This document shows, piece after piece, positions 28,561 to 43,833 of a stretch of 64,000 bases of DNA (the first letter of the stretch is position 1; each line of letters begins with the position of its first letter). The stretch covers positions 62,001-126,000 of the forward strand of contig NZ_NFLM01000002.1 in NCBI RefSeq assembly GCF_002160915.1, read 5' to 3'. The DNA comes from Faecalibacterium sp. An121 (GTDB taxonomy: Bacteria > Bacillota > Clostridia > Oscillospirales > Ruminococcaceae). Under the pieces are notes generated by a model. The model was not told the origin of the DNA. It did no database searches and was given only the letters and a program-made list of their open reading frames with translations. The translations under genes were made by a program, and so were the position numbers.

Positions 28561-30345
28561 TTACTGGAACCAGAAGCCCTTATAATCGTACTTGAAGGTG
28601 CGGTAGCCCTGCATGGTGCACTCGTAGGCATACTGGCGGATCAAATTGCCCTGGCTGTCGTATTCGCCATACACCATGGCCACGCCGCTGTTGACCGCCC
28701 AGTGCCCGGTGTCCGGGTCGAGGGTAGCGTTGGACACGATGCTGGAATAGGGCACCGGGAAGGAGTCCACCAGCTCCACCGTGCCTGCGTTTTCGTCGAT
28801 GCGGTAGGTGTAGCTGTAACTGGCGTCCCCGTTCCCGCCGTACATCTCGGTGCTGACCGTGTCGGGCAGGTCGGGCTGGTAGCCGTCGCTGCGGGAGGAC
28901 AGGGCCCAATAGTTGTTGTTGAACATCCGCAGGTAGCACACCCCTTCTTCTTCCGCGGGGGCGTATTCGACGCTGTGCTGGCCGTACTGCCATGTAAAGT
29001 CGTTCACCGGTTCCAGGCAGTATTCTTCATAGCCGGTGCCCTCCCAGAAGGCGGGATCGCCGCAGAACCAGTCGATGGCCGCCTGGCCATGGACGTCCCC
29101 CACCTTGATGGCGGTGGAGGTCTCCCGGGAGGAGACCACCAGGCTGTCGCTGTCGGGCAGGTACTGGATGGTGTTCAGGTGGATCCAGTCCTGCTCCCCT
29201 GCCTGCCAGAAGAAGGGATCGGTGGCGCCGATGGGCCGGGTCTGGCTGTGGTAGTCCGCCATCAAGTCCTTGAAATCCAGCAGCAGATCCACCTCGCCGC
29301 TGGCCAGGTCCACTTCCACCACCAGGTCTTCCACATCCACCGCGCCGGTCTGCTCCACCAGAGCCACCACCGTGCCGTCCCGGCCATAGTTGATGTCGTG
29401 ATGCAGTTCATACTCGCCCAGAGGGTACACCTGTTCCACCTCGCCCAGCCCGTTGATCCGGGCCAGCTTGTTGGCCGACACGCAGGTGACGATCTCATCC
29501 CCATAGGTCAGGATGCGGTCCATGCCAAAGCCTTCCAGCACCATCTCATAGCGCATGACGCCGGCGTTGTCGAACAGGAACCCGTATCCCAGATGGCCGT
29601 TGGTGCGCATCATGGTGAACAGGCCCTCGTCCAGCGGCTCGGTGCTCGTCCCGTCGGTCACCTCCAGGACGGTGTCGTAGCCGGAATAGGGCTCGGGCAT
29701 CTCGATGGTGAAGCGGACGGTCTGCCGGACGTTGCCCCAGCTGCCCCGCAGTGTCATGGTGACCTCGTTCACCTCACCGGGCACCAGGCCGATCATCTGG
29801 AACTCATGCCGGGTGGAATACTCCCGGCCCGAGCTGTCGGCGGCGACGGCGGTGAAATCCGGGATGCGCTCATCCTCCACCCGGATGGTGTACTCCACCT
29901 GGGTGGGGAAATCCGTCTCAAAATACAGATACAGACCATTGGCCCCGGTGCCGAAGGGATTCAGCACCGCCAGAGGGGTCTCTGCGGTCCAGTTGAGGTT
30001 CTGGGTGGTCTGGCCCTTGTCCAGCACAGCCCGGATCCGCTGCTGGACGGCAGTGTCATAATAAGTAAAGCCTTCCTGGTCGATGTCGGTGGGGACCAGC
30101 TGCAGCACCGTGATGCTGGCATCCGCCGAGGCGGTGCGGATCTCGATCTGGTGTTCTTCCTCCACGCCGATCAGATCTCCCACATCCACGGCCCAGCCGT
30201 CCCGTATGGCAGTCTCCTGGGAGGTGAACCACTTGCCCACGGCCGGCGCCACGACGGGAACCAGGGCCGCTATGGCCAGCAGCACCGCCAGCACTACCAC
30301 AATGGGTATCCAAATGCGCCTTTTCTTTTTTGGTTTTGTATTCAT
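28561..30345 (-). CDS. membrane-anchored arylsulfate sulfotransferase (ASST)
   Basis: A 594-residue protein of the bacterial PAPS-independent arylsulfate sulfotransferase family, which moves sulfate between phenolic compounds. A positively charged start (KPKKKRR) and one membrane helix (about 11-36) place the rest outside the cell. Family blocks are ELHHDINYGRDGTVVAL, DWIHLNTIQYLP...LVVSSRE and YGQHSVEY; the last probably holds the sulfated histidine. The ATG at 30345 is 9 bases after AAAGGA; another ATG at 30351 is too close to that site. In gut anaerobes such enzymes act on phenolic drugs and metabolites. Confidence 0.85.
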   Translation of the reverse strand: MNTKPKKKRRIWIPIVVVLAVLLAIAALVPVVAPAVGKWFTSQETAIRDGWAVDVGDLIGVEEEHQIEIRTASADASITVLQLVPTDIDQEGFTYYDTAVQQRIRAVLDKGQTTQNLNWTAETPLAVLNPFGTGANGLYLYFETDFPTQVEYTIRVEDERIPDFTAVAADSSGREYSTRHEFQMIGLVPGEVNEVTMTLRGSWGNVRQTVRFTIEMPEPYSGYDTVLEVTDGTSTEPLDEGLFTMMRTNGHLGYGFLFDNAGVMRYEMVLEGFGMDRILTYGDEIVTCVSANKLARINGLGEVEQVYPLGEYELHHDINYGRDGTVVALVEQTGAVDVEDLVVEVDLASGEVDLLLDFKDLMADYHSQTRPIGATDPFFWQAGEQDWIHLNTIQYLPDSDSLVVSSRETSTAIKVGDVHGQAAIDWFCGDPAFWEGTGYEEYCLEPVNDFTWQYGQHSVEYAPAEEEGVCYLRMFNNNYWALSSRSDGYQPDLPDTVSTEMYGGNGDASYSYTYRIDENAGTVELVDSFPVPYSSIVSNATLDPDTGHWAVNSGVAMVYGEYDSQGNLIRQYAYECTMQGYRTFKYDYKGFWFQ

Positions 30346-30557
30346 CTGCATCTATCCTTTCTGGATCGCCAAATCTTTCAGAAACCGGCGCCCCGCGCTG
30401 CCGCCGGGCGCCCAAAACCATCCTAAGTATAGCACTCCATTTTTGCAACGGTATGGCCAAAACCTATATTTTACGTTGCCCATGCCACCAAAGACCGGAA
30501 AATCTTCCCAAAGCTCCCTTTTGATCCTGGCGGGCCGTTTTTGGGGACAGACAGGGT

Positions 30558-31854: not shown

Positions 31855-31913
31855 AAAAAAGGACCGCTGCACAACGGCTTTCGTTCTGCAACGGTCCCTT
31901 TCTTTTTATTTTT
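31855..31913. terminator. bidirectional terminator
   Basis: GGACCG (31861) and CGGTCC (31892-31897) form an interrupted hairpin, with CTTTCTTTTTATTTTT on the plus side and TTTTTTG on the minus side. It ends both the chromate transporter operon and the four-gene operon coming from the right. Confidence 0.8.
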
Positions 31914-33138
31914 CCAGCACGCCGGCAGCCAGGTATACCTCCCGCAGCTGGTCGTAGGCTTTTTTGGAGCTGCTGCGGCGGGCCTGGCCGATCTTATACC
32001 GCTCCTGTGCCACGATCCGGACGGCCCGGACGGCCCAGTAAGCGGGCAGCAGCCAGGGCGCCTTTTCCAGGCGGGGGTACCGCTTATGCAGCACCTCGGC
32101 GGAGGGGAAGCACTGGCGCAGCACCTCCCGGGGCATATTGTGCAGGTAGGTGCCCTGGCCTCTCTGCTGTACCTGCAGGGCCCGCTGTACCTCCCGGTTC
32201 CCGTGTACCCCTGCGCTGACGAGGTAGTCCACCACCAGGGCGGCGTCCCGGTCCAGGGCGGGAGTACCCGTCCCATCAAAGCAGGCGTTGGCGATCCGCT
32301 CCATCTGGCGGGCGAAGGCGGTCATGTGCACCGCTTCCAGCTGGCTGCGGATGCGGGCGGCATCCAGGGGCAGCCGCTGCTGACGGAACACATAGATATC
32401 CGCCAGAAAGCGGATGCCCACCCCCGAGCCGGTGAAGTGCTTGCGGAAGTGCAGCAGGCTGTGGACATAAAAGTCCTCCATCCCCATGCGGTAGATGTGC
32501 TTTTTGCCCGGCAGCAGGTTCTCCGGGTCCCACAGCCCCTGTTCCTTCTGCTCGACCCAGGCGGCCTCGTCCGCCGGCAGGCTGCGCCGGTCGGTGGCGC
32601 ACTGGTGCAGCTCCACATACATGAAGGGCAGCTTCCAGTATCCATCGTGGAATCCCTTTTCGGTGTCGTCGTAGACATAATCCCGGGCTTCCATCCAGGT
32701 CCGCATCCGTCCGCTGTCCATCTGCCGGATCACCACATCCAGGTCCGCCATGCTGCGCATCAGCGGGTCGGGATAAAAAGTGCGCGTGATCCAGCCCTTT
32801 ATGGGCATACAGTCGACGCCCTCCTGCTCAAAGCTGTCCAGCAGGGCCTGGATCTCATATTCCTGCATGACCCCCAGCTGGATCATCTTTTCATAGGGAC
32901 GCTTCATGCTCTGCTGCAAAGGCGCCCAGGCCGCGCCCTTCTGGTTTTTGAGCACCGGGTAGATCATGCTCACCAGGCTCTGCCGCAAGATCAGATCCTC
33001 CAGCTTCTGGGTGCTGCACCCTGCGGGCCAAGGCAGCTGCGCCTGCCAGTCCTGGTGCAGGGCAGCCCGCATCAGAGCCAGCAGCAGTCCCGTTTCATTG
33101 AGATGCTTCAAATCCTCCTCGTTCCTTTCATACCTCAT
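31906..33138 (-). CDS. nucleotidyltransferase family protein (NTP_transf_5)
   Basis: A 410-residue protein of the uncharacterised nucleotidyltransferase family often found in polysaccharide and lasso/other RiPP loci. The core block is MPIKGWITRTFYPDPLMRSMADLDVVIR, with DLDV supplying the metal-binding acids. C-terminal helices follow. It is the last gene of the c-di-GMP riboswitch operon and overlaps the stop of the Wzz/kinase gene (ATGA). What it nucleotidylates is unknown. A link with the neighbouring peptide cluster, which has an HprK-like kinase (another frequent companion of this family), is inferred. Confidence 0.75.
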   Translation of the reverse strand: MRYERNEEDLKHLNETGLLLALMRAALHQDWQAQLPWPAGCSTQKLEDLILRQSLVSMIYPVLKNQKGAAWAPLQQSMKRPYEKMIQLGVMQEYEIQALLDSFEQEGVDCMPIKGWITRTFYPDPLMRSMADLDVVIRQMDSGRMRTWMEARDYVYDDTEKGFHDGYWKLPFMYVELHQCATDRRSLPADEAAWVEQKEQGLWDPENLLPGKKHIYRMGMEDFYVHSLLHFRKHFTGSGVGIRFLADIYVFRQQRLPLDAARIRSQLEAVHMTAFARQMERIANACFDGTGTPALDRDAALVVDYLVSAGVHGNREVQRALQVQQRGQGTYLHNMPREVLRQCFPSAEVLHKRYPRLEKAPWLLPAYWAVRAVRIVAQERYKIGQARRSSSKKAYDQLREVYLAAGVLEK

Positions 33139-35000
33139 CCGTGCTTCGGCTTGCTCTTGCCGCCGGCTTTCCGGCCGGTCTTTTTGGTGCCGTTCAGCTT
33201 TTCCAGCAGGGCGTTCTTCCGCTCGGCCCGCCGGGCTTCCTCGTCCGGCTCGGGGGCGGGCTGGGGCGCGGCAGGCGGGGCCTGTTCCGGCTCGGGGGCA
33301 GCGCCCACGGTCTGGTACACCTGCTGTTCCTCCTTCACCTCGGGCTCCTGCACCGGGGCGGCTTCGGGCTGCTCTTGGGGACGGTCGGCCGGTTCCGGTT
33401 CATCCTGTGCCGGAGCGTCCTCCTGGGACTGTTTCCAGCTGCCCTCGGCGCCCATCTGGAGCAGCGCGTCGATGGCCTCGTCGTCCGACAGCACCTTATC
33501 CTTGCCGTCCTGGTCGCCGATCAGCTCATCCAGCACACTGCGGGGCTCCTCCGGAGCCTGGCCGGGGGTGGACCAGCCCGCGTCGCTCTGCTGGGGAATG
33601 GCCGGGCGCTGCTCGTCGGCCTCCATGGCCGTATCCGCCGGGGGCGGAGGCGGGGGCGACTGCCACGAGCGGAAGCCCCGCATCTGCTTGGAGGCGTTGA
33701 CGATGCAGCCCAGGATCCGGATGCCCGACTTATCCAGCTTGTCGATGGCCTCCTGGATGGCGGGCATGGGCACCGTGTCGTAGCGGATGACCATCAGCGC
33801 CGCCTCGGCGATCTCGTTCAGACGCAGCACGTCCGAGGACTGGCCGATGGAGGGCGTATCGACGATGATGTACTCATAATGGGGGATCATCTGTTTGAGG
33901 AACTCGAACAGGGCGCCGTCCAGGTTGACCGCGTTGCGCTCCAGCACGGCGGGCAGCAGATCCAGATACCCCGTCAGGGACACCACCGCATCCTGTACGG
34001 TGGCCTCCCCTTTATACAGCGCGTTCAGGGTGCGGTTGTAGTCCACCGTCTGGAGGAACATCCCGCCCAGGCTGGGATTGCGCAGGTTGAGGTCCACCAG
34101 CAGCACATGGCGCTCCAGGTTGGAGATCTGTACCGCCAGGTTGGCCGCAACGGTGCTCTTGCCCTCACCATCCTCCGCGGAGGTAATGTAGAAGCAGTGG
34201 TTCTTGTTTTTGCCGCTGAGGCGGTTGCAGAGGATGTAAGCCGCGGCGGCAAAGTTCTGTTCGATGGAAGAGTTGCCCGTGGGCTCGCTGCTCAGCAGCT
34301 CCTTGGTGCTCTGGAAATAGGGCACATCCCGGGGGATGATGCCCAGCATCTCCAGTCCCAGGGTATCCTCCACGCTTTTGGGATCCATCAGGGTGGGCCG
34401 CACCAGGAACTCGATGCCCACGATGCCCAGGCCCAGCACCAGGCCGATCAGGCCGGTGATCCACCACCGGATGCTGACGTATCCGCCGCCGCCCGGGGTG
34501 AAGTAGGCCGCGGGCGCGTCGATCTCCATCAGGGAGCCCTGCATCAGGGTCAGGGGCATCATCCGGCGTGTGACGTTCAGGATGGAATTCATCAGTTCCA
34601 CACCGGCGTCGGCGTTGGTCCACCAGAGGGTCATCTCCAGGATCTGGGTGTCGTTGTAGCGCCGGATGCTCAGGTTGCTGGCCACATCCTGGGGCGTCAC
34701 CGAGATCACCTCGGCCTCGTCGATGGCGGCGCTCAGCACCCGGTAGCTGGTCATCAGATAGGCGGTGGCCTCGGTCATATCCTCGGCCAGGTTGAAATCG
34801 TGGCCGCCGGTGGTGGCGTCCTCTGAGGTCACAGCCACCGAACAGTAGATCTCATAGCTGGTGTAATTGCCCCGCACAAAGGAGATGCTGTTCAGCACAA
34901 AGCCGATGGCAAATCCCAGCACCGTCAGTCCCACCAGCAGTTTCCACCGCTTGAGGAGGGTACTCAGCAGATCCCCGATCCGGATCTCGTCTTGATTCAT
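33135..35000 (-). CDS. Wzz-type chain-length protein fused to a BY-kinase/CpsD-like ATPase
   Basis: A 621-residue protein. Residues 1-200 are a Wzz-like module with two membrane helices (about 20-40 and 180-200). Residues 210-450 are a bacterial tyrosine-kinase-type ATPase: Walker A SAEDGEGKST (274-283), Walker A' VLLVDLNLRNPS (299-310), and YIIVDTPSIG. Residues 455-621 are a low-complexity Pro/Glu/Gln tail ending in basic residues; it contains only one tyrosine, so the autophosphorylated tyrosine cluster of Wzc/CpsD is missing. Normally such proteins control exopolysaccharide polymerisation and export, but no glycosyltransferases are nearby. ATG at 35000. It lies 28 bp from the Cna-B-like gene. 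Confidence 0.82.
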   Translation of the reverse strand: MNQDEIRIGDLLSTLLKRWKLLVGLTVLGFAIGFVLNSISFVRGNYTSYEIYCSVAVTSEDATTGGHDFNLAEDMTEATAYLMTSYRVLSAAIDEAEVISVTPQDVASNLSIRRYNDTQILEMTLWWTNADAGVELMNSILNVTRRMMPLTLMQGSLMEIDAPAAYFTPGGGGYVSIRWWITGLIGLVLGLGIVGIEFLVRPTLMDPKSVEDTLGLEMLGIIPRDVPYFQSTKELLSSEPTGNSSIEQNFAAAAYILCNRLSGKNKNHCFYITSAEDGEGKSTVAANLAVQISNLERHVLLVDLNLRNPSLGGMFLQTVDYNRTLNALYKGEATVQDAVVSLTGYLDLLPAVLERNAVNLDGALFEFLKQMIPHYEYIIVDTPSIGQSSDVLRLNEIAEAALMVIRYDTVPMPAIQEAIDKLDKSGIRILGCIVNASKQMRGFRSWQSPPPPPPADTAMEADEQRPAIPQQSDAGWSTPGQAPEEPRSVLDELIGDQDGKDKVLSDDEAIDALLQMGAEGSWKQSQEDAPAQDEPEPADRPQEQPEAAPVQEPEVKEEQQVYQTVGAAPEPEQAPPAAPQPAPEPDEEARRAERKNALLEKLNGTKKTGRKAGGKSKPKHG

Positions 35001-35028
35001 ATCCGTTCACCTCCGTCCTTTCTGCCTG

Positions 35029-36720
35029 TCAATGCTTGGGCGCAGGGGGTGTTTCCTTCTCCTGCTTTTCCTTGGGGGGTTCCTCCTGCTTTTTCCTGCG
35101 GGCCTCCTCGTGTTTGCGGGCGGCCAGCCGGATCAGGAACACCATCAGGCCGATGACTCCCACCGTCAGCAGGGCCGCCAGCACCAGAGCCACGACGCTG
35201 CGCAGGGTGAACAGCGAGATGGTCCAGGTCTGCACGCTGGCCGTATCGGTCACGCGGAAGGTGTATCTCTGCTCCGCATCGCCGTTGTGCAGGATGTAGT
35301 AATCCCCCTCGGGCAGGTCGGTCAGCACCAGGTCCTGACCGTCGGAAGTCCAGGATTCCAGCATATTGTCCTGGCTGTCGTACAGGGCAAACTGCTGGTC
35401 CAGGGTGTTGGTGCGCAGCACCGCGTCCACCGGGTGGATCACCACCCGCAGCACACGGTTGGTGATCTCCAGCTGAGCGCTGCTCTCGCCGTTGACCCGG
35501 CCGTCCGCCGTCACCACCATTTCATAGGTGTCGCTGTCCGGCCGGTAGTCCCCCACCGTCTGGCTCTGCTGGATGGTGTAGGTGACGCCTTTTTCCAGGT
35601 TGGTCAGCACGGCGTTGCCGGCGCTGTCGGTGGTCAGCTGCTGGGTGAGGCCGGTGCGCTGGTTGGTGACGGTGAAGCGCGCTCCGCCGATGTTCTGGTC
35701 GGCGTACAGCTCATCCGCCACGTGCAGCACGATCTGGGTCTTTTCGGCCTCCACCTCGTGCACCTCGGGCAGCGCGCCGGTCCTTTGCTCCACCTCGGCG
35801 GTGAAGGTCTCGGTCATCGAGGCGTAGTACTCGGGCGCTCCTACCTGCTGCACCGTATAGGCGCCCAGGTACAGCTCGTCGCTCTCCCCGTAGCCCTCCT
35901 CGTCGCAGTAGATGGTATCCACCACCTGGCCGGTGGTGTAGCGCACCGTGCCGTCCATGGTGATGATGTTCTCCGCCGCGATCACCCAGAAGGTGCCGCC
36001 GCCCACCGGCAGCTGGGTGTCGGCGTCGTTCATCTGGATCCGGATGATGTTTTTGGCCGGGGACAGGCGGATCTGCACCACATAGGGCTCGGGCCAGTCG
36101 AACAGCTCATTGACATCAAAGTAGGTATCCGCCGCCAGGTCATAGCCTTCCGGCGCGTTCAGTTCGTGGAAATAATAGTTCCCCTGCCAGATCTTTTCGG
36201 GCAGATAGAAGGTGCCGTCCTCCCGGGTGGCGTACAGCCGGTAAGAGACCTTTTCGGGGTAATAGGTGTTCAGGATCTGGAGGGAGCCCTCCTGCAGGTG
36301 GGTGATGTCGGTGCGGTACAGCTCAAAGCGGATGTTTTCCTCCTGGATGGGGCGGTCGGTCTCCGCGTCCACCAGTTCCACATACACCGCCGACTTGACC
36401 CCTTCGTCGGGGTAGGCTCCTCCGCCGCCGGCGACGATCTCCTCCTCGTCGTCATCGCCACCGCCGCCGTCCCAGTCATCCCAGTTCCAGCCGCCGTCCC
36501 AGTCGTCCCAGCTGTCGCCCTCCCATTCGTCCCCGTTGGGGTAGCTGGAAGCGCCGCTGGAGGCGCCGTAGTCCTCCAGATAACCGGTGTAGTCGCTGAG
36601 GATGTACAGGCCCAGCAGTGCGATGACCAGGATCAGCACGAATACCAGGCCGCTCATCATATCGGTAGCGGGCTGCCAGAAATTGTATCTGGAATCTCCC
36701 CGTCTCTTTCTGGGCCTCAT
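35029..36720 (-). CDS. MotB/ExbD-like membrane protein with Cna-B-like extracellular domains
   Basis: A 563-residue protein. The N-terminus (RYNFWQPATDMMSGLVFVLILVIALLGLYIL) has the single helix and the acidic residue (Asp20) placed as in the proton-conducting helix of MotB/ExbD/ZorB. Next is an Asp/Trp/Gly-rich linker (about 60-95), then three or four Cna-B/prealbumin-like beta modules (about 110-490), and a second membrane helix near 505-535 with a basic/Glu tail. There is no OmpA-like peptidoglycan-binding domain and no LPXTG. The start overlaps the stop of the MotA/EAL gene (ATGA), so the two products are probably made together as a stator-like pair. I know of no described protein with this arrangement. 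Confidence 0.7.
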   Translation of the reverse strand: MRPRKRRGDSRYNFWQPATDMMSGLVFVLILVIALLGLYILSDYTGYLEDYGASSGASSYPNGDEWEGDSWDDWDGGWNWDDWDGGGGDDDEEEIVAGGGGAYPDEGVKSAVYVELVDAETDRPIQEENIRFELYRTDITHLQEGSLQILNTYYPEKVSYRLYATREDGTFYLPEKIWQGNYYFHELNAPEGYDLAADTYFDVNELFDWPEPYVVQIRLSPAKNIIRIQMNDADTQLPVGGGTFWVIAAENIITMDGTVRYTTGQVVDTIYCDEEGYGESDELYLGAYTVQQVGAPEYYASMTETFTAEVEQRTGALPEVHEVEAEKTQIVLHVADELYADQNIGGARFTVTNQRTGLTQQLTTDSAGNAVLTNLEKGVTYTIQQSQTVGDYRPDSDTYEMVVTADGRVNGESSAQLEITNRVLRVVIHPVDAVLRTNTLDQQFALYDSQDNMLESWTSDGQDLVLTDLPEGDYYILHNGDAEQRYTFRVTDTASVQTWTISLFTLRSVVALVLAALLTVGVIGLMVFLIRLAARKHEEARRKKQEEPPKEKQEKETPPAPKH

Positions 36721-38270
36721 CGATTCTGCCCCACTTTCAGCATCTTCTCAAACTCCTGCACCGACAAAGGCTGGGAGAAGAAGTACCCCTGGCCCTCGGT
36801 GCAGCCGCACTTGCGCAGCATGGTCAGCTGCTCCATGCTCTCGATCCCTTCAGCCAGAAGGTTCAGATGCAGGGTCTTGGCCTGTTCAAACACCGGGGGC
36901 AGGGCCTCGGGCTTGCCGTCCAGCCCTTCGCTGCGCAGGTCCAGCTTGAGCTGGTCGGTGCTCATCTGCCCCACGCTGCTCAGCTTGATGTAATCCCCGT
37001 TGAAGCCGTCCAGAATGACCCGGAAGCCCGCCTGCTGCAGCCGGGCCACCACGTCGGTCAGCACGCCGTAGGCTTCCAGATAGGCGTGCTCCGAGATATC
37101 GATCTCCAGGTATTTGGGCGGGATGCGGTACTTTTTGAGCATATCCAAAAAGAAGTCCGCCACATCCATGGCCAGCACGTCGGTCTTGGTGACGTTCACC
37201 GACACCGGCACCGGATGCAGCCCGCCGTTGATCCAGATGCGCACCTGCTGGCACACCTTTTCCCATATGTACTGGTCCAGCTTGGTGATGTAGCCGTTGC
37301 CCTCCAGCACAGGGATGAACACCGCCGGCGAGATCACGCCCAGAGCGGGGTGGTTCCAGCGCACCAAAGCCTCCGCCCCGATCACCTTGCGGGTGTTCAG
37401 CTCATACCGGGGCTGGAGGAAGAATACGAACTCGTTGCGCTTCAGGCCGTCCAGGATCTGGGGCATCAGGATCTGCTCGTTGCCCGACGGGCGGCCCGCC
37501 GCCGCTCCGACCATGGTGCTGCGCTTGGGCAGCCGCTCCAGCAGCTCCACGATCTGCCGGGACTCCCGCCGGTCGCTGTAACGGCTCTGTTCCTCGGTGG
37601 TGGGGATGATGGTCTTGTGGAACTCCTCCAGGAACAGGGACATCTCCCGGTTCATGACATTGCGCAGGATATTGTTGGCGATGTTGAACAGGATGGACAG
37701 GATGACGCCGGCGATGGAGGTATAGAAGGCGGTATTGATGCCCGAAAGGATGTTCTCCACGCTGTTCAAAGCCGCGTCCACCGTGGTGAAACTGACCCCC
37801 TGCAGGCCCATCAGCAGGCCGATGAAGGTGCCCAAGATGCCCAGGCCGGTCATAACGCCGGGGATCTGGGCCGCCACGCTCTGCCAGCTGTACAGCCCCA
37901 GCACGTCCTCGTTCATACTGTCATCCAGGTCGCTGACGATCAGGCCGCTGTCCCGCTGCTGGCGCACCTTTTCGCGGTATTCCTGGAACAGCAGGTCCAG
38001 CCGCTTCTGGCGGAAGAACCGGTCGATCTGGAACGCCGCGATCCAGGCGGAGTTGCCCTCCGAACTGGCCGCCTGGGCGATGTTCTCCTGCCCGTTGCGC
38101 AGGCCGTTGGTGAATGAGATCACCGGCGCCAGGCAATAGATGCTGCCCAAAACGGAAATGATGCACATTCCCCCGACGACGATCAAGGACAGCAGATCGG
38201 GGGAATAACCCGCCAGCAGCAGACTGCTGACGATGATCACAACAATGAACAAATACGAAAGTCGTCTCAC
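36717..38270 (-). CDS. MotA/TolQ/ExbB-like channel fused to a degenerate EAL domain
   Basis: A 517-residue protein. Two membrane helices (about 5-25 and 30-50) are followed by a cytoplasmic loop and the MotA/TolQ signature IPGVMTGLGILGTFIGLLMGL (from 136) and another helix (180-200). Residues 270-517 form an EAL domain: EAL itself at 300-302, SVNVT, LEID, and AEGIES are present, but the usual DDFG reads DGFN (421-424), so a metal ligand is lost and it may bind rather than cleave c-di-GMP. The GTG at 38270 is chosen by AGGAGG 11 bases before it; an ATG at 38294 has no such site. It is the first gene after a c-di-GMP-I riboswitch. Confidence 0.75.
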   Translation of the reverse strand: MRRLSYLFIVVIIVSSLLLAGYSPDLLSLIVVGGMCIISVLGSIYCLAPVISFTNGLRNGQENIAQAASSEGNSAWIAAFQIDRFFRQKRLDLLFQEYREKVRQQRDSGLIVSDLDDSMNEDVLGLYSWQSVAAQIPGVMTGLGILGTFIGLLMGLQGVSFTTVDAALNSVENILSGINTAFYTSIAGVILSILFNIANNILRNVMNREMSLFLEEFHKTIIPTTEEQSRYSDRRESRQIVELLERLPKRSTMVGAAAGRPSGNEQILMPQILDGLKRNEFVFFLQPRYELNTRKVIGAEALVRWNHPALGVISPAVFIPVLEGNGYITKLDQYIWEKVCQQVRIWINGGLHPVPVSVNVTKTDVLAMDVADFFLDMLKKYRIPPKYLEIDISEHAYLEAYGVLTDVVARLQQAGFRVILDGFNGDYIKLSSVGQMSTDQLKLDLRSEGLDGKPEALPPVFEQAKTLHLNLLAEGIESMEQLTMLRKCGCTEGQGYFFSQPLSVQEFEKMLKVGQNR

Positions 38271-38321
38271 GACGTCGTCCACCTCCTGCAACATACCCCG
38301 GCCCTGGCGGGCAAGGCCTTT

Positions 38322-38465
38322 CACCAAAAAACAAAACGGCCGCAATCCAGACAAGAATTGCGGCCGAACCACCTTTCGCCGCATCTCCAGTCCCGCTTGA
38401 TCTGCGTCGTTTAAGGCTTCCAACTTTGCGTCCCCACATTTCTATGGGTTTGCCAAAACGATATC
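38322..38465 (-). promoter_or_regulatory. c-di-GMP-I (GEMM-I) riboswitch with terminator, upstream of the MotA/EAL operon
   Basis: Minus strand. GGCAAACC begins near 38454, followed by a GAAA-capped stem (CCCATA-GAAA-TGTGGG) and GGACGCAAAG, the conserved core of GEMM-I aptamers. A second stem with the tetraloop-receptor region runs to about 38367. The expression platform is an intrinsic terminator: GGCCGCAAT pairs with ATTGCGGCC and is followed by GTTTTGTTTTTT (38327-38366). It lies 50-60 bases upstream of the first gene, so c-di-GMP should control transcription; the sign (on or off) is not evident from the sequence alone. Confidence 0.9.
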
Positions 38466-38503
38466 CAATTTATGGGTGCACCATTGTGCTTATTCCTGAA
38501 AAC

Positions 38504-38532
38504 ATTTTATAATGTCATTTCTTTTTTGTCAA
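38504..38532 (-). promoter_or_regulatory. promoter of the riboswitch/MotA-EAL operon
   Basis: Minus strand TTGACA (38532-38527), 17-bp spacer, TAAAAT (38509-38504). Both hexamers and the spacing are identical to the promoter of the peptide operon at 43868-43896. Confidence 0.8.
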
Positions 38533-38587: not shown

Positions 38588-40321
38588 TTATGCATGGTTC
38601 CGGCCCTCGGGGGCCATCTCCACCTGCCGGTCGCAGATGGACAGGGCCGCAGGCCGGTGGGTGATGATCAGCACGGTCTTTTGGGTCATCCGGCGCAGGT
38701 TGGTCAGCAGCTTCTGTTCGGTGTCCTCGTCCAACGAGCTGGTGCACTCATCCAGGATCAAAATGGGACGCTCCGAAAACACCGCACGGGCAATGGCGAT
38801 CCGCTGCATCTGCCCTTCGGACAGGCCGCTGCCGTGTTCGCCCAGGGCGGTGTCCAGGCCGTGTTCCAGCTCCCGTACAAAGCCGTCGGCGCAGGCCACC
38901 TCCAAAGCACGCCACAGCCGCTGTTCCTGGCGCATGGCGGCCGGCTCCCCAAAGGCCACGATCTCCCGGATGGTGCCGCTCATCAGCTGATTGCCCTGGG
39001 GCACATAGGCAAACAGCCCCCGCCACGCCGCTGTCAGCGGGTACTCCGCCGGGCCGGCGGCGGTCCTGGCCTTGAGGTAGCGCTGCCCTTTATCCAGGGG
39101 ATACAGGCACATGAGCAGCTTGAGCAGGGTGCTCTTGCCGCAGCCGGAATGGCCGGTAAAGGCCACATACTCCCCCTTGCGCACCTCCAGGTCCAGCCCG
39201 TCGATGACGGCCAGCCGCTCCGAGACGTGGCTTTCCCCCTCAAAAGTGCGGTAGGAGAAGCTGGCGCCCCGCACGCCCAGGCTCTCAAAGGATTCCCGAT
39301 AGAAGCGGGCGATCTCCCGGGCGGGGACCGGCGCCTCTCCGCCGTCATCGGGGTAAGCTTCAGCCTCCATCAGCCGCTCGGCGCTGGCGGTCATGGCATA
39401 GTATTGGGGCACCACTCCGGTGATGCCCGCCACCGGGGACTGCACTTGTCCCACCAGCTGCAGCACCGCCGCAAAGGTGCCGTACGAGATGGTCCCCTGC
39501 ATGATCCCATAGCCGCAGTAGACCGCCGCCAGCAGATACCCGCCGTTGACGATCCCTCCAAAGCCGAAATAGCACAGATTGGAAAAATGGTTGCGCCGCA
39601 GCCGGGCGGCCTTGTGGGCCTCCATCTTTTGGGCGGCCTGCCGGCCGGTGCGCTCCTCCATGGCAAAAACATGGACGATCATCATACTTTCCAGCCGCTC
39701 CTGCAGGAAGGACAGTACCGCCCCGCTGGCCTCCTGGATCTGCTTGTGCAGCCGCTTGAGGACCTTTCGCAGCAGGGTGGTCACCGCCAGCACCGCCAGC
39801 CCGGCCGGCAGCACGACATAGACAAAGGCGGGCTGCAGGTACAGCAGCATCCCCAGCGCCCCCGCCAGCCGGGCCAGCATCCCTGCCAGCCCCGGCAGGA
39901 TGTTCACCAGATCGTTTGCCACCACCACCGTATCCGATGTCAGCCGGGACACCCACTCCCCCGAGTGCTTGGCCTTTACGGTGGCAAAGTCCTTGTGCAG
40001 CAGGCAGTCGAACAGCCGGCTTTTCAGCCGGTTTTCCACGGTAGCCCGGGTCCACTCGGCCAGCAGGCTTACCAGTGCGTCCAGGATCATCTGCGCCAAA
40101 GTCAGCCCGGCCAGCAGCACGGCCGCCCACACGAAGGTGCGCATCCGCCCTGCCGCCGCCCCGTCGATCATCTCCCGAAACAGCATGGCATAGGCCACCC
40201 CGCTGGCCCCCAGGGCCGCTTCCATCAGCATCAGGCCCGCAACACAGCCTCTGTATTTTCCGGCCACCCGCCACAGCCACCGTGCAGCCCCCTGGCTGCG
40301 CCTGTTGTGGTTTTGCTCCAT
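38588..40321 (-). CDS. ABC exporter (membrane domain fused to ATPase)
   Basis: A 577-residue half-transporter that probably works as a homodimer. The membrane domain (about 15-310) has six helices; the ATPase shows Walker A GHSGCGKST, signature LSEGQMQRIAIARA and Walker B LILDECTSSLDE. There is no N-terminal C39 peptidase, so leader removal must be done by another protein, such as the S26-type peptidase of this cluster. ATG at 40321, 18 bp after the radical SAM gene; it is the last gene of the peptide operon. Export of the modified peptide is the likely role. Confidence 0.88.
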   Translation of the reverse strand: MEQNHNRRSQGAARWLWRVAGKYRGCVAGLMLMEAALGASGVAYAMLFREMIDGAAAGRMRTFVWAAVLLAGLTLAQMILDALVSLLAEWTRATVENRLKSRLFDCLLHKDFATVKAKHSGEWVSRLTSDTVVVANDLVNILPGLAGMLARLAGALGMLLYLQPAFVYVVLPAGLAVLAVTTLLRKVLKRLHKQIQEASGAVLSFLQERLESMMIVHVFAMEERTGRQAAQKMEAHKAARLRRNHFSNLCYFGFGGIVNGGYLLAAVYCGYGIMQGTISYGTFAAVLQLVGQVQSPVAGITGVVPQYYAMTASAERLMEAEAYPDDGGEAPVPAREIARFYRESFESLGVRGASFSYRTFEGESHVSERLAVIDGLDLEVRKGEYVAFTGHSGCGKSTLLKLLMCLYPLDKGQRYLKARTAAGPAEYPLTAAWRGLFAYVPQGNQLMSGTIREIVAFGEPAAMRQEQRLWRALEVACADGFVRELEHGLDTALGEHGSGLSEGQMQRIAIARAVFSERPILILDECTSSLDEDTEQKLLTNLRRMTQKTVLIITHRPAALSICDRQVEMAPEGRNHA

Positions 40322-40339
40322 GCCCCGTCCCCTACCTTA

Positions 40340-41752
40340 TTATAATGTGTTCTGTGCAGCGCCGTATTTGGCTTCGGCCTCGTCCGCCACTTGCCGGATA
40401 CGGTCCACATAGCCGCCTTTCCACAGCAGGCACATCGTACGGTCGCAGCCCATGAGCTGGCGGTTTCCGTCCAATAATGCCGTTGCCCGGCACCCGCCGC
40501 CGCACTTATAGCGATACTGGCAGGCGTTGCACTCTGCATTTTCTGCAAGAAGGTCCCTGATGCGCCCGTTCACAAACTGCATATAATAGCTGTCGCTCAG
40601 GCCCTGTTTCAGACCAATGTCCTGCACCAGCGGGAATTTTTCCTGCTGGGGACTGGCTGTCATGGGCATACAGGGCAGCAGTCTGCCCTCTGGGGTGATA
40701 TAACAGGACATCCGGGCCGCACCGCACATATAGCAGTTCAAACATTTTTCAGTTCCATCATGAGGTTCTGCAACAATTTTATAGGGCCTATTCCGACCAA
40801 GGTCTGCCACATTGCATAGAACCAAACGCTCGATAGGTTGTCCTGCTTGATAATACCAGGTGATATAAGGAATCATCGCTTCGACAAATTCTTGGTCTGT
40901 CATGGCATTGCCATCACAGTTGCGGCACCAAAGGTCTGTCATTGCAACATTGCCCACTTTTACATTTTGGACATCGCTTTTTTTCAGTGCTTCGATCGTC
41001 TGTGGCAAGGTATCCACATTGCCACGATGAATGCATATTTCAACATCGGTATAAAATCCTCGCTGGCTGCATAAGCGCAGTGCACGCAGCGCCGCCTCCT
41101 CTGCACCGGGAACACCCCGCATCCAGTCATGCCAGCCTACCCCATCAAAACTGATGGAAAAAGCAGGTTTTATCCCGCGCTGCTCAAATGCATCCAGAAT
41201 CGCTTCATGCAACAGCCAGCCGTTTGTATAAATCTTTCCTATTACCATCCCATAGGAACGGATCCGGTCCACCAGCTGCCAGAAATCCTTCCGCACAAAG
41301 GGCTCGCCGCCCGTGATATCGACCTGCAGCACACCGCATTCCGCCATCTGGTCAATGAGGTCAAAAGCCTGCTGGGTGGACAGCTCCCCCAGCGCTCCCT
41401 CCGGCGCATCCATAAAGCAGTGACGGCAGCGATAGTTGCATTTTCCTGTGATGGACCAGAAGATGCTTCGTACATACCGGTTATGGTAATATTTGTAATA
41501 CTGTCGTTTTTCTATTGGCTGCGGCTCTTCGCAAGATTCCACAACGCCGTTTTCCTCATACTGTTTCAGCGCCTTTTCCATTGCGTCATCCAACAGGCCG
41601 CCAGGCAGCTCTGTTTCTCCATCGCAGAGCAGCAGGGTCTGAAATGCTTCTTGTGACAGCTGATCGACCTGATTTTCGGGCTGTTTGACCAGCACCCAGG
41701 CCATTCCCTCCCAGCCACGCAGCGCATAGGGGGATTTTAGTCTATAAAACAT
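40340..41752 (-). CDS. radical SAM/SPASM peptide maturase
   Basis: A 470-residue enzyme. The radical SAM cluster motif CNYRCRHC is at 105-112 (Cys105, Cys109, Cys112), with the GGEP motif in DITGGEPFVRKD. The C-terminal SPASM domain carries cysteines in CLNCYMCGAARMSCYITPEGR, CNACQYRYKCGGGC and CDRTMC for auxiliary clusters. An N-terminal PqqD-like winged helix is suggested by residues 1-75, and a separate PqqD protein is also encoded. Such enzymes introduce thioether or C-C links into ribosomal peptides; two conserved Cys in the precursor suggest thioethers. The ATG at 41752 follows AAAGGA. Confidence 0.92.
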   Translation of the reverse strand: MFYRLKSPYALRGWEGMAWVLVKQPENQVDQLSQEAFQTLLLCDGETELPGGLLDDAMEKALKQYEENGVVESCEEPQPIEKRQYYKYYHNRYVRSIFWSITGKCNYRCRHCFMDAPEGALGELSTQQAFDLIDQMAECGVLQVDITGGEPFVRKDFWQLVDRIRSYGMVIGKIYTNGWLLHEAILDAFEQRGIKPAFSISFDGVGWHDWMRGVPGAEEAALRALRLCSQRGFYTDVEICIHRGNVDTLPQTIEALKKSDVQNVKVGNVAMTDLWCRNCDGNAMTDQEFVEAMIPYITWYYQAGQPIERLVLCNVADLGRNRPYKIVAEPHDGTEKCLNCYMCGAARMSCYITPEGRLLPCMPMTASPQQEKFPLVQDIGLKQGLSDSYYMQFVNGRIRDLLAENAECNACQYRYKCGGGCRATALLDGNRQLMGCDRTMCLLWKGGYVDRIRQVADEAEAKYGAAQNTL

Positions 41753-41779
41753 AGGTCGTTCCTTTCGTAAATGCAGTTT

Positions 41780-41820
41780 ACAAAAATCGGCAAACAGATC
41801 AAAAATCTGTTTGCCGATTC
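41780..41820 (-). terminator. attenuator hairpin between precursor and maturase genes
   Basis: AATCGGCAAACAGAT pairs with ATCTGTTTGCCGATT over 15 bp and is followed by TTTGT on the minus strand. A partial terminator here would make more precursor mRNA than enzyme mRNA, as in many peptide operons. Confidence 0.75.
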
Positions 41821-41836
41821 ATTTATTTGTTTGTTT

Positions 41837-42001
41837 TTATGATGCTGTCAAACCATAATAACAAGACACGCCATTCTGGTTAGACCATGTTAAGCAACCG
41901 CCATTTTCACCATCCGAGGTCACCACTACATCATTGTTATCAAATAACACCAATTCAGCAGTGGCCGGCTCATATTGCGTATAACCCTTTTTCGAATCCA
42001 T
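41837..42001 (-). CDS. RiPP precursor peptide (54 residues)
   Basis: ATG at 42001 with AAGGAGG 7 bases upstream. The peptide starts MDSKKGYTQYEPATAELVLF, continues DNNDVVVTSDGENGG and ends CLTWSNQNGVSCYYGLTAS. The acidic/hydrophobic N-terminal half would be the leader recognised by the PqqD protein; the core after GG has two Cys (36 and 47) plus aromatic and Ser/Asn residues. It lies immediately upstream of the radical SAM gene and is paralogous to the broken copy at 42071. The mature structure is unknown. I recognise no characterised peptide. Confidence 0.85.
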   Translation of the reverse strand: MDSKKGYTQYEPATAELVLFDNNDVVVTSDGENGGCLTWSNQNGVSCYYGLTAS

Positions 42002-42070
42002 TACAATTCCTCCTTACTCATCGAAATAGAATCATCCAAAGCATTGTATTGTGTCAGCAGCATGTCATTT

Positions 42071-42231
42071 TTAGTGTTGCCCGTACTGGTTTCCCACTGC
42101 ATTGTTGCACATACCATTGCTCTGTCCATGTGTGCAACCGCCATTTTCACCATCCGAGGTCACCACCACATCGCTATTGTCAAACAGGATCAGCTCGGCA
42201 GCCGCTTTGCGGTATTCCTTTTCTTATCTAT
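42071..42231 (-). pseudogene. second precursor peptide, apparently inactivated
   Basis: The frame from 42223 down reads EKEYRKAAAELILFDNSD, then DVVVTSDGENGGC and THGQSNGMCNNAVGNQYGQH, clearly a paralogue of the 54-residue precursor. However, the position of the start codon is ATA (42231-42229), and one base is missing in an A-run right after it (A4 where A5 is expected), so no start codon is in frame. A GAAGGAGGGG site is still present. Restoring one A and the ATG would give a 53-residue peptide. Either a real pseudogene or two sequence errors. Confidence 0.7.
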
Positions 42232-42686
42232 ATGCCTTCACCCCTCCTTCGGTTGACAATGCGTTGCAGTTTTCTATAAACACGTCCCGGAAAGGCCCGC
42301 AGCCACAAGGCCGTATAGCGCAAAGGGACGGTTTTGACATATTTCCGATAAGCCGGGCTGTCGCAGCTGGTGTATGTATCCCGTTCATCCTGATAGAAGC
42401 CGGTCATCACGCCGATCACCCAGCCGGCAGGCACCTTCTCGGACCGATAACAGTTGTCGCCCCGGATGCGGTAAGCGCCGTCCAATACCTTGACGATGCG
42501 GTGCAGCACATACTCCCCCGCCGGGCGGCGGTAGAGCACCACATCTCCCCGCTTGAGCGGCCCTTTGGGAGGTTCCAGCACCACGGTGCTCTTGCGGGCG
42601 TGGAGCAACGGCTCCATGCTCACCCCTACCGTCCAGGACAGGGCACGGTCTCCGGCAGCCAGCTGCTGTTCAATGGTCCGCTCCAT
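42228..42686 (-). CDS. S24/S26-type peptidase (signal-peptidase-like) of the peptide cluster
   Basis: A 152-residue protease of the S26 type. The nucleophile Ser23 is in TVGVSMEPLL; GDVVLYRRPAGEYVLHRIVKV follows, with His62 where the bacterial type I enzyme has Lys, as in SipW/archaeal signal peptidases. RGDNCYRSEKV is the third box. No convincing membrane helix is visible, so it may be cytoplasmic and cleave the leader of the precursor. ATG at 42686 overlaps the PqqD gene; the stop overlaps the remains of precursor 2. Confidence 0.78.
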   Translation of the reverse strand: MERTIEQQLAAGDRALSWTVGVSMEPLLHARKSTVVLEPPKGPLKRGDVVLYRRPAGEYVLHRIVKVLDGAYRIRGDNCYRSEKVPAGWVIGVMTGFYQDERDTYTSCDSPAYRKYVKTVPLRYTALWLRAFPGRVYRKLQRIVNRRRGEGI

Positions 42687-42951
42687 CGCTCTCCAGTGCC
42701 ACCTCAATGCTCTCCAGGAACGCCTGCACGTCCCGGCGGGCCGTTTCTGCGTCCACGCCCTCGTAGCGCTCCAGGGTCTTGGCTACAAGCTCCTCGGGGG
42801 TGGCGCCCTGCTCCAGCTCCTTCCAGTAGAAAGCGCCGGTCTCATTCAGCCGAATCATCCCGTTGAAGCTCTTGCTGGCCTCGCCGATGGCCACCACCAT
42901 GGCCTCATCCCCCAGATGACGCAGCAAAAACCCCTTTTTGGTTTTCAGCAT
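42670..42951 (-). CDS. PqqD family peptide chaperone (RiPP recognition element)
   Basis: A 93-residue PqqD-like winged-helix protein: LLRHLGDEAMVVAIGEASKSFNGMIRLNETGAFYWKELEQG is the typical beta-rich front with the LNETGAFIW block, followed by helices (ETARRDVQAFLESIE). Such proteins bind the leader and present it to the radical SAM enzyme. ATG at 42951; it overlaps both the HprK-like gene and the peptidase gene, so translation of the three is coupled. Confidence 0.9.
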   Translation of the reverse strand: MLKTKKGFLLRHLGDEAMVVAIGEASKSFNGMIRLNETGAFYWKELEQGATPEELVAKTLERYEGVDAETARRDVQAFLESIEVALESDGADH

Positions 42952-43654
42952 CTTGTTTCCTCCTCATCGTCTCATAAGAAAGCTGTGCAGCTGCCGGTTC
43001 ACGGTTGCATTGCAGCAGGTAAAAGTCCACGGTCGTCATCATACGCTCCAGCAAGGTCCAGAAGCAATCGAAGCAAGGCTCCTTTTTTGGGATCAGCACC
43101 TGCTGGAAAATACGCCTGCCCGCCTCTGACATGGTCAGCCTGCGGATGCTGTTTTGGGGACTTTGCTCCAGAAAGCAAACGCCCCGCACTGGCAGCATGA
43201 TGTTGCAGCCCAGCCTTTCTTTTCCCTGCCAGGGGGTGCCGCACGCATAGACCCCCTCTTTCTCCACACGGATCAACGGCTTATCGCCATTGACCACCTG
43301 GGCGCGGTCACCAAACAGATCCAGCCAAAGCCGGATGTGGGTCGTCTTGCCTGTACCACTGGGTGCAGCAAAAATATATGCCTCGCCGTCCACAGCCACC
43401 ACCGCTGCGTGCATCAGAAATGCGCCATACTGCGGCATCCGGCAGCAAATGGCCCGGTAGATGCAGAGGCTTTCACAGTATCCCAGCGAAGCCGCCGGCA
43501 TGGAAGCACGCTCCGTTTCGATCTCGTCCGCACTGGCACATACGGCAAAAGCCGGAGCTTCTTCTACACGATATCCCTCGCACATCTGCCAAATGTAGGA
43601 ATACCTGCACCGGATCTCCACCACAACGCCCGCCAGCTTGATACAGAACTTCAA
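42905..43654 (-). CDS. HprK-like kinase of a RiPP cluster
   Basis: A 249-residue protein with an HPr-kinase-like P-loop: FAAPSGTGKTTHIRLWLDLF (Walker A about 97-105) and a following NGDKPLIR block. It is shorter than true HprK and lacks the HPr-binding part; such relatives are found next to PqqD and nucleotidyltransferase genes in peptide clusters, some phosphorylating the peptide. The TTG at 43654 gives the family-like N-terminus LKFCIKLAGVVVEIRCRYSY and is preceded by GGAAGTGGAG; a GTG at 43687 in frame has no ribosome binding site. First gene after the c-di-GMP riboswitch. Confidence 0.8.
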   Translation of the reverse strand: MKFCIKLAGVVVEIRCRYSYIWQMCEGYRVEEAPAFAVCASADEIETERASMPAASLGYCESLCIYRAICCRMPQYGAFLMHAAVVAVDGEAYIFAAPSGTGKTTHIRLWLDLFGDRAQVVNGDKPLIRVEKEGVYACGTPWQGKERLGCNIMLPVRGVCFLEQSPQNSIRRLTMSEAGRRIFQQVLIPKKEPCFDCFWTLLERMMTTVDFYLLQCNREPAAAQLSYETMRRKQDAENQKGVFAASSGG

Positions 43655-43699
43655 AAACCCACACGCTCCACTTCCTGGCCGGCGCACATGGCCCGGCGG

Positions 43700-43833
43700 A
43701 TGAAAAAAGGCTGCAATGGCACCCGGATAACCAGGTCATTGCAGCCGAACCACCTTGCGCCGCAGCCAGCTGCAGACACGTCAGGCTTCATGCTTTGCGC
43801 CCCTGCATTTCTACAGGTTTGCCAAACAGATAT
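43700..43833 (-). promoter_or_regulatory. c-di-GMP-I (GEMM-I) riboswitch with terminator, upstream of the peptide cluster
   Basis: Minus strand. GGCAAACC (about 43826-43819), stem CCTGTA-GAAA-TGCAGG, then GGGGCGCAAAGC, followed by the second stem to about 43747. The core differs from the usual GGGACGCAAAGC by A to G at one position. The expression platform is GGCTGCAATG/CATTGCAGCC followed by TTTTTT (43702-43746). The sequence GCAAGGTGGTTCGGC just before the terminator is nearly identical to that of the first riboswitch, showing a common origin. Confidence 0.88.

Follow-up and report, generated by a model that had tools for sequence, protein, structure and literature searches.

Ion motors of the 5:2 type are known from flagella, gliding, type 9 secretion, the Ton/Tol systems and phage defence. 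Among the published 5:2 motors that we found, none serves polysaccharide export and none carries a receptor for cyclic di-GMP (c-di-GMP) fused to its channel (PMC9389320, PMC12505986). In the phage-defence motor Zorya, a ring of Ser and Thr residues in ZorA encircles the ZorB Asp (PMC11890865), and the flagellar brake YcgR acts as a separate protein (PMC12713396). This study concerns three genes on the minus strand of a 64,000-nucleotide stretch of the Faecalibacterium sp. An121 genome (contig NZ_NFLM01000002.1, positions 62,001 to 126,000; the window below, in whose own numbering positions are given). The trio consists of motA-EAL, a channel subunit joined to an EAL domain; motB-CnaB, a membrane partner or axle with Cna-B domains; and wzz-BYK, a Wzz-like membrane domain fused to an ATPase resembling bacterial tyrosine kinases (BY-kinases). 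The reading we favour, with moderate confidence, is that these genes encode a c-di-GMP-gated 5:2 ion motor which powers or gates the assembly of a surface polysaccharide, and which is distinct from both Zorya systems and flagellar stators.

Zorya ZorAB is the closest match in channel sequence, has the same FW...D motif in the first helix of the B subunit, and is likewise encoded by adjacent genes. It has an OmpA domain, a long helical tail on the A subunit and the ZorC, ZorD and ZorE proteins, whereas the trio has none of these and has instead the EAL and Cna-B domains and a polysaccharide neighbourhood. MotB and ZorB hold peptidoglycan, but MotB-CnaB has a second helix that anchors its far end in the membrane. 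Flagellar MotAB with YcgR shares the ion-motor core and, on our reading, control by c-di-GMP at the motor; the trio differs in that its putative receptor is fused to the channel subunit, is an EAL rather than a PilZ domain, and comes without a peptidoglycan anchor. LapD and FimX share the EAL fold with a broken catalytic site and a largely kept pocket, and LapD joins cytoplasmic sensing to extracytoplasmic output, but MotA-EAL has no GGDEF domain and is attached to an ion channel instead of a HAMP-periplasmic module. Wzz/Wzc and CapA-CapB resemble the third protein, with a Wzz-like membrane part and a P-loop ATPase, mostly near Wzy, Wzx and glycosyltransferase genes; Wzz-BYK differs in being encoded with the motor pair and in mostly missing the tyrosine cluster. 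Literature searches, with most subscription papers outside their coverage, turned up no MotA-EAL fusion and no ExbB-type motor in exopolysaccharide export, which agrees with an earlier note on this DNA, whose author had not seen the arrangement described.

The channel, the axle and their third partner

Behind a riboswitch, the genes run in the order motA-EAL (36717-38270), motB-CnaB (35029-36720), wzz-BYK (33135-35000) and a PF14907 nucleotidyltransferase gene (31906-33138; Pfam, 4.9e-34), all on the minus strand. The first two overlap by 4 bp (36717-36720), as had been noticed earlier, and so do the last two. The start of motA-EAL is likely the GTG at 38270, which follows an AGGAGG (38282-38287), gives a protein of 517 residues and is where the homologues begin. 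Two longer starts, TTG at 38423 and ATG at 38384, were rejected because both lie inside the riboswitch.

The earlier note had described the first product as a MotA-type channel joined to an EAL domain, and Pfam finds both in the single reading frame: MotA_ExbB (PF01618, E 4.6e-10, above the cut-off) and EAL (PF00563, E 1.5e-49). A four-helix MotA/ZorA-type channel (residues 1-246) is followed by a linker (247-263) and a degenerate EAL domain (264-517). In the AlphaFold model (mean predicted local distance difference test, pLDDT, 87) the channel helices span residues 2-21, 26-69, 130-156 and 164-220, the linker appears flexible (pLDDT below 50 at residues 247-261), and the EAL barrel begins at 264. 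The nearest curated families of the first half are ZorA models, the best of them at 59.8 bits against a cut-off of 100. PADLOC ZorA1 matches the channel part at 6e-19, and a profile of seven relatives matches the solved ZorA chains 8vvn (E 5.8e-16) and 8qyy (E 6.3e-11), so the kinship to MotA-type families on which the note had staked its reading is found. It rests on profiles because a fold search with the whole MotA-EAL model returned EAL domains throughout and was uninformative for the channel part. T148 is conserved in all 70 channel homologues and T184 in 69 of them, and both align with Thr positions of ZorA.

The second protein has a cytoplasmic N-terminus, a first membrane helix containing Asp20, a Gly/Asp-rich linker (residues 44-107), a rod (112-503), a second membrane helix (506-546) and a cytoplasmic tail. 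Its first helix reads FWQPATDMMS, with the FW...D motif of ZorB, and is matched by the ZorB chain 8vvn_B (E 0.0017, PDB profile search); the PADLOC ZorB1 match is weak, yet in register. Asp20 (codon at 36661-36663, minus strand), the predicted ion-carrying residue, lies within predicted helix 15-43, is invariant in the 64 MotB partners compared, and corresponds in position to ZorB Asp24/Asp21 (PMC11890865). The MotB-like helix with an acidic residue, described earlier, and its relation to ZorB, for which the note had suggested a profile search, are thus borne out. Outside, Pfam finds SpaA/Cna-B repeats (PF17802, E 3.2e-25; four SpaA stretches) and no OmpA or other peptidoglycan-binding domain in the window protein; so far the earlier description holds, and to it must be added the C-terminal membrane helix and cytoplasmic tail, which it had not included. 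The AlphaFold model (mean pLDDT 85.6, over 95 for most of the rod) has a disordered linker followed by a string of beta domains (112-503); in fold, pilins and the TIE adhesin match it best. Every full-length Cna-B-type partner listed has the second membrane helix. At one locus (L117, 3324-4945; L numbers are our labels for loci) a frameshift or an assembly error divides motB-CnaB between two overlapping frames of 218 and 323 residues.

The pair therefore has two features of the 5:2 motors: a MotA_ExbB core with conserved polar residues and, from an adjacent gene, a B helix with an Asp. A role as flagellar stator was rejected because the B subunit has no OmpA-type wall anchor and the window genome holds a single MotA_ExbB gene.

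Wzz-BYK matches TIGR03029 and TIGR01007 as well as the PDB entries of CapAB and Wzc, and has a P-loop kinase domain related to that of CapB and Wzc. The Walker-A motif EGK[ST] is kept in the alignment; a strict pattern caught 17 of 59 homologues, being too narrow. A tyrosine cluster (at least 3 Tyr within 25 residues, after position 470) occurs in 4 of the 59; the window protein has just one Tyr in its tail.

The EAL domain and the riboswitch

The modelled EAL domain has the EAL fold, with Z 29.7 to 3n3t and a root-mean-square deviation of 2.2 over 249 residues, and its matches include the receptors FimX and LapD. Among 70 homologues the EAL Glu is kept in 59, the Asn in 60, the first Asp of DDFG in 54, the Lys in 51, the late Glu in 49 and the Gln of QGY in 55; the window protein keeps all six, the late Glu being Glu474. 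The second DDFG Asp is absent in all 70, replaced by Gly in 54, Asn in 13 and Ser in 3, so the complete metal-binding site of EAL phosphodiesterases, which includes the DDFG, is missing. In the MorA structure 4rnf, titled a mutant phosphodiesterase, both residues of this Asp pair are Asn. An EAL fold with pocket residues kept and the catalytic site broken is the pattern of a degenerate EAL receptor. Because the second catalytic Asp is lost throughout and most binding residues are kept, the domain is probably a c-di-GMP receptor and not a phosphodiesterase.

The c-di-GMP riboswitch that the earlier note had placed ahead of the operon is recovered by Rfam as a c-di-GMP-I aptamer (RF01051) at 38356-38464 on the minus strand, scoring 43.2 bits against a gathering score of 35. 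Sequence and hairpin energies place a terminator hairpin with a T run at 38326-38365 on the same strand, and the 5' half of this hairpin shares bases with the aptamer's 3' end. By hairpin energies, the terminator shares the last aptamer bases in most leaders. Because of this sharing the riboswitch looks like an ON switch, in which ligand binding should prevent termination. Besides the window, a riboswitch stands ahead of the trio at L045, L052/L046, L092/L049, L101, L103 and L091, and about 1.1 kb upstream at L087, so that eight genomes of Faecalibacterium, Blautia and other Clostridia show the pairing. This count is a lower bound, having been made with an RNA model (R1, 8 base pairs) built from Rfam matches. 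The window genome has five GGDEF matches.

Conservation of the trio and its polysaccharide neighbourhood

A pattern-based scan of 84,980 species genomes found the channel in 69 clostridial loci, a lower bound, and the survey of gene neighbourhoods that the earlier note had suggested shows the same trio conserved across them beyond chance. The MotB gene adjoins the MotA gene in 66 loci, and the trio is complete in 61. Seven of the eight incomplete loci end at contig edges, and the eighth (L110) has a short MotB-like gene; it is also the one exception to wzz-BYK being the third gene wherever the contig extends to that point. The hosts include Faecalibacterium (among them F. longum and F. gallinarum), Blautia, Brotaphodocola, Lachnoclostridium, Ruminococcus and many rumen and gut Clostridia. 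The spread is patchy, at 7 of 31 species of the genus and few of 391 sampled from the class. Two separate Faecalibacterium lineages carry the trio, which suggests horizontal transfer.

In a tree of the channel part, all trio members group in a single clade (98/92) that excludes both a true Zorya system and the OmpA-bearing pairs of Lachnospiraceae. The OmpA-bearing group (L121-L131, from Lachnospiraceae and Clostridiaceae) has a separate ZorA-like channel and a MotB of about 250 residues, and no polysaccharide neighbours. The Zorya system, which served as outgroup, is of type I (L163, 90-7511), comes from the same class, holds ZorA, ZorB, a ZorC-like gene and ZorD, and stands beside ATP-synthase-like genes. 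OmpA was detected in its ZorB, unlike in the window protein.

Polysaccharide-type genes flank the trio in 46 of the 52 loci that could be tested, namely those with at least 1.5 kb past the third gene. As a control, none of 11 loci of the OmpA-bearing outgroup holds a homologue of these neighbours. The neighbour families are VanZ, Wzy_C, the Wzx-type Polysacc_synt, glycosyltransferases, ABC (ATP-binding cassette) exporters and, just upstream, the sugar transferase Bac_transf. In F. longum (L052) the order is trio, Wzy, VanZ, glycosyltransferase, Wzx. The likely job of the trio is thus exopolysaccharide assembly, a role absent from the earlier note. In one group of loci (L113, 6633-7943, and its relatives L119, L095, L097 and L112) a Bac_transf fused to an HD (HD-GYP-like) domain lies directly ahead of motA-EAL. 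This fusion could possibly be a second link to c-di-GMP, at the first step of polysaccharide synthesis.

Possible mechanism and alternatives

In the mechanism we propose, two MotB-CnaB helices would sit inside a ring of five MotA-EAL subunits, and protons or sodium ions would pass by way of Asp20 and turn or shift one set of subunits relative to the other. The invariance of the Asp argues for ion flow. The outer part of MotB-CnaB would be a Cna-B/SpaA rod, with the second helix returning to the membrane in place of a hold on peptidoglycan. On the inside, the catalytically dead EAL domain of each channel subunit would bind c-di-GMP and either release or brake the motor. The Wzz-like co-polymerase with its P-loop ATPase may couple the motor to surface-polysaccharide assembly, with the motor providing either force or a gate for the extension or release of chains. 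The riboswitch probably turns on transcription with the same messenger, so that c-di-GMP would both make the machine and activate or tune it. The earlier idea of an ion-driven envelope machine that senses c-di-GMP on its cytoplasmic side keeps its footing in the ZorA and ZorB profiles and in the place of Asp20 within the helix, with the amendment that the EAL domain is degenerate and likely a receptor.

If true, Gram-positive bacteria could put the force of an ion gradient to work on their surface polymers, and c-di-GMP would gate a motor directly. We are evenly divided on the broader claim that gut Clostridia have here an ion-driven rotary machine of a new class for the assembly of surface polysaccharide, with c-di-GMP receptors borne on the channel, a pilin-like rod, a Wzz/ATPase partner and a second messenger that throttles the motor in cis. 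Little is known of the outputs of c-di-GMP in Faecalibacterium and Blautia, both common in the human gut, and the machine would offer a handle on the control of biofilm or capsule in both.

Several observations weigh against this account. The pocket Gln is Glu in 16 of the 70 EAL homologues, about a quarter, and some lineages may therefore have lost the ligand. Riboswitches were found in a minority of loci. Two trios have no EAL domain on the channel (L116, 7199-7969, and L161, 6618-7433); because they form a single group nested within the clade, the EAL fusion probably dates from the ancestor of the clade, with a single later loss, but this lineage keeps the rest, and c-di-GMP sensing is therefore not essential to the core. 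In the window genome the trio lies away from polysaccharide genes, and a standard polysaccharide locus on another contig, which holds the Wzy gene, has its own Wzz and BY-kinase, which weakens the case for this species, though not for the family. The two EAL-less trios are also a natural control for the role of the domain.

The alternative that survives best, which we consider unlikely yet worth keeping in view, is an inside-out relay without sustained rotation: as in LapD, c-di-GMP at the EAL domain would shift MotA against MotB and hence the position of the Cna-B rod or of Wzz, with ion flow minor or absent. The degenerate EAL fold does resemble the receptors LapD and FimX (PMC3032553). The second membrane helix of the axle suggests limited rotation or tethering and could block free turning, which leaves room for a non-turning relay. 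However, the channel Asp and both Thr residues are invariant or nearly so, and a protein that acted only as a scaffold would have no use for them.

It is considerably less probable that the Faecalibacterium trio serves, through peptide export or display, the gene cluster directly upstream and not polysaccharide. This cluster (38588-43833, minus strand) is of the type that makes ribosomally synthesised and post-translationally modified peptides (RiPPs), and it has a c-di-GMP-I riboswitch of its own (43737-43833, minus strand, by RNA search). It contains, also on the minus strand, a PqqD gene (42670-42951; Pfam, 1.7e-16) and a small precursor-like open reading frame ending in Ser (41837-42001), with a second related stretch near 42070-42240. 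It also holds a radical-SAM/SPASM gene, an ABC transporter, a weak S26-peptidase-like gene, and a P-loop gene judged by eye, without a Pfam match, to be HPr-kinase-like. The ABC and S26-like genes adjoin the trio in several Faecalibacterium species. Against such a service stand the 46 of 52 loci in which the trio keeps company with polysaccharide genes in many other species, and F. longum, where the polysaccharide genes lie downstream and no homologue of the peptide cluster was found in the stretch compared.

About as improbable, or slightly more so, is a catalytically active EAL phosphodiesterase that the MotAB part merely keeps in place at the membrane; the six residues kept in the window protein would suit an enzyme, but the loss of the second DDFG Asp in every homologue, at the pair that reads Asn-Asn in MorA, led us to judge it the less likely reading of the domain. 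Last and least credible is a Zorya-like phage-defence motor with the EAL domain replacing the ZorA signalling tail, for although ZorA is the known family closest to the channel and the locus is patchy within the genus, the clade is separate from the true Zorya of the same class, the neighbours are polysaccharide and not defence genes, and membership was rejected on the missing OmpA domain, on ZorA scores under the cut-offs and on the lack of ZorC, ZorD or ZorE beside the window pair, whose neighbours are Wzz-BYK, the nucleotidyltransferase, an ABC transporter and a radical-SAM gene, the two downstream genes having no PADLOC match.

The motor reading leaves the fourth gene aside. The earlier note was right that a Wzz/BY-kinase and a nucleotidyltransferase follow the pair, but the nucleotidyltransferase is not part of the conserved unit of motA-EAL, motB-CnaB and wzz-BYK, and we rejected it as a part of the machine. 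It probably belongs to the adjacent peptide cluster, given the upstream HPr-kinase-like, PqqD, Ser-ending precursor and radical-SAM genes and the precedent of PsmN and PsmK. We take PsmN to be of the PF14907 kind. In the lasso peptide pseudomycoidin, the C-terminal Ser is the target of this nucleotidyltransferase homologue together with the kinase PsmK (PMC9266682). At L049 a homologue of the nucleotidyltransferase gene adjoins a RiPP-type ABC gene. Downstream of the operon, past a chromate-transporter gene pair on the opposite strand, lies an arylsulfotransferase gene (28561-30351, minus strand; PF05935, 4.6e-65).

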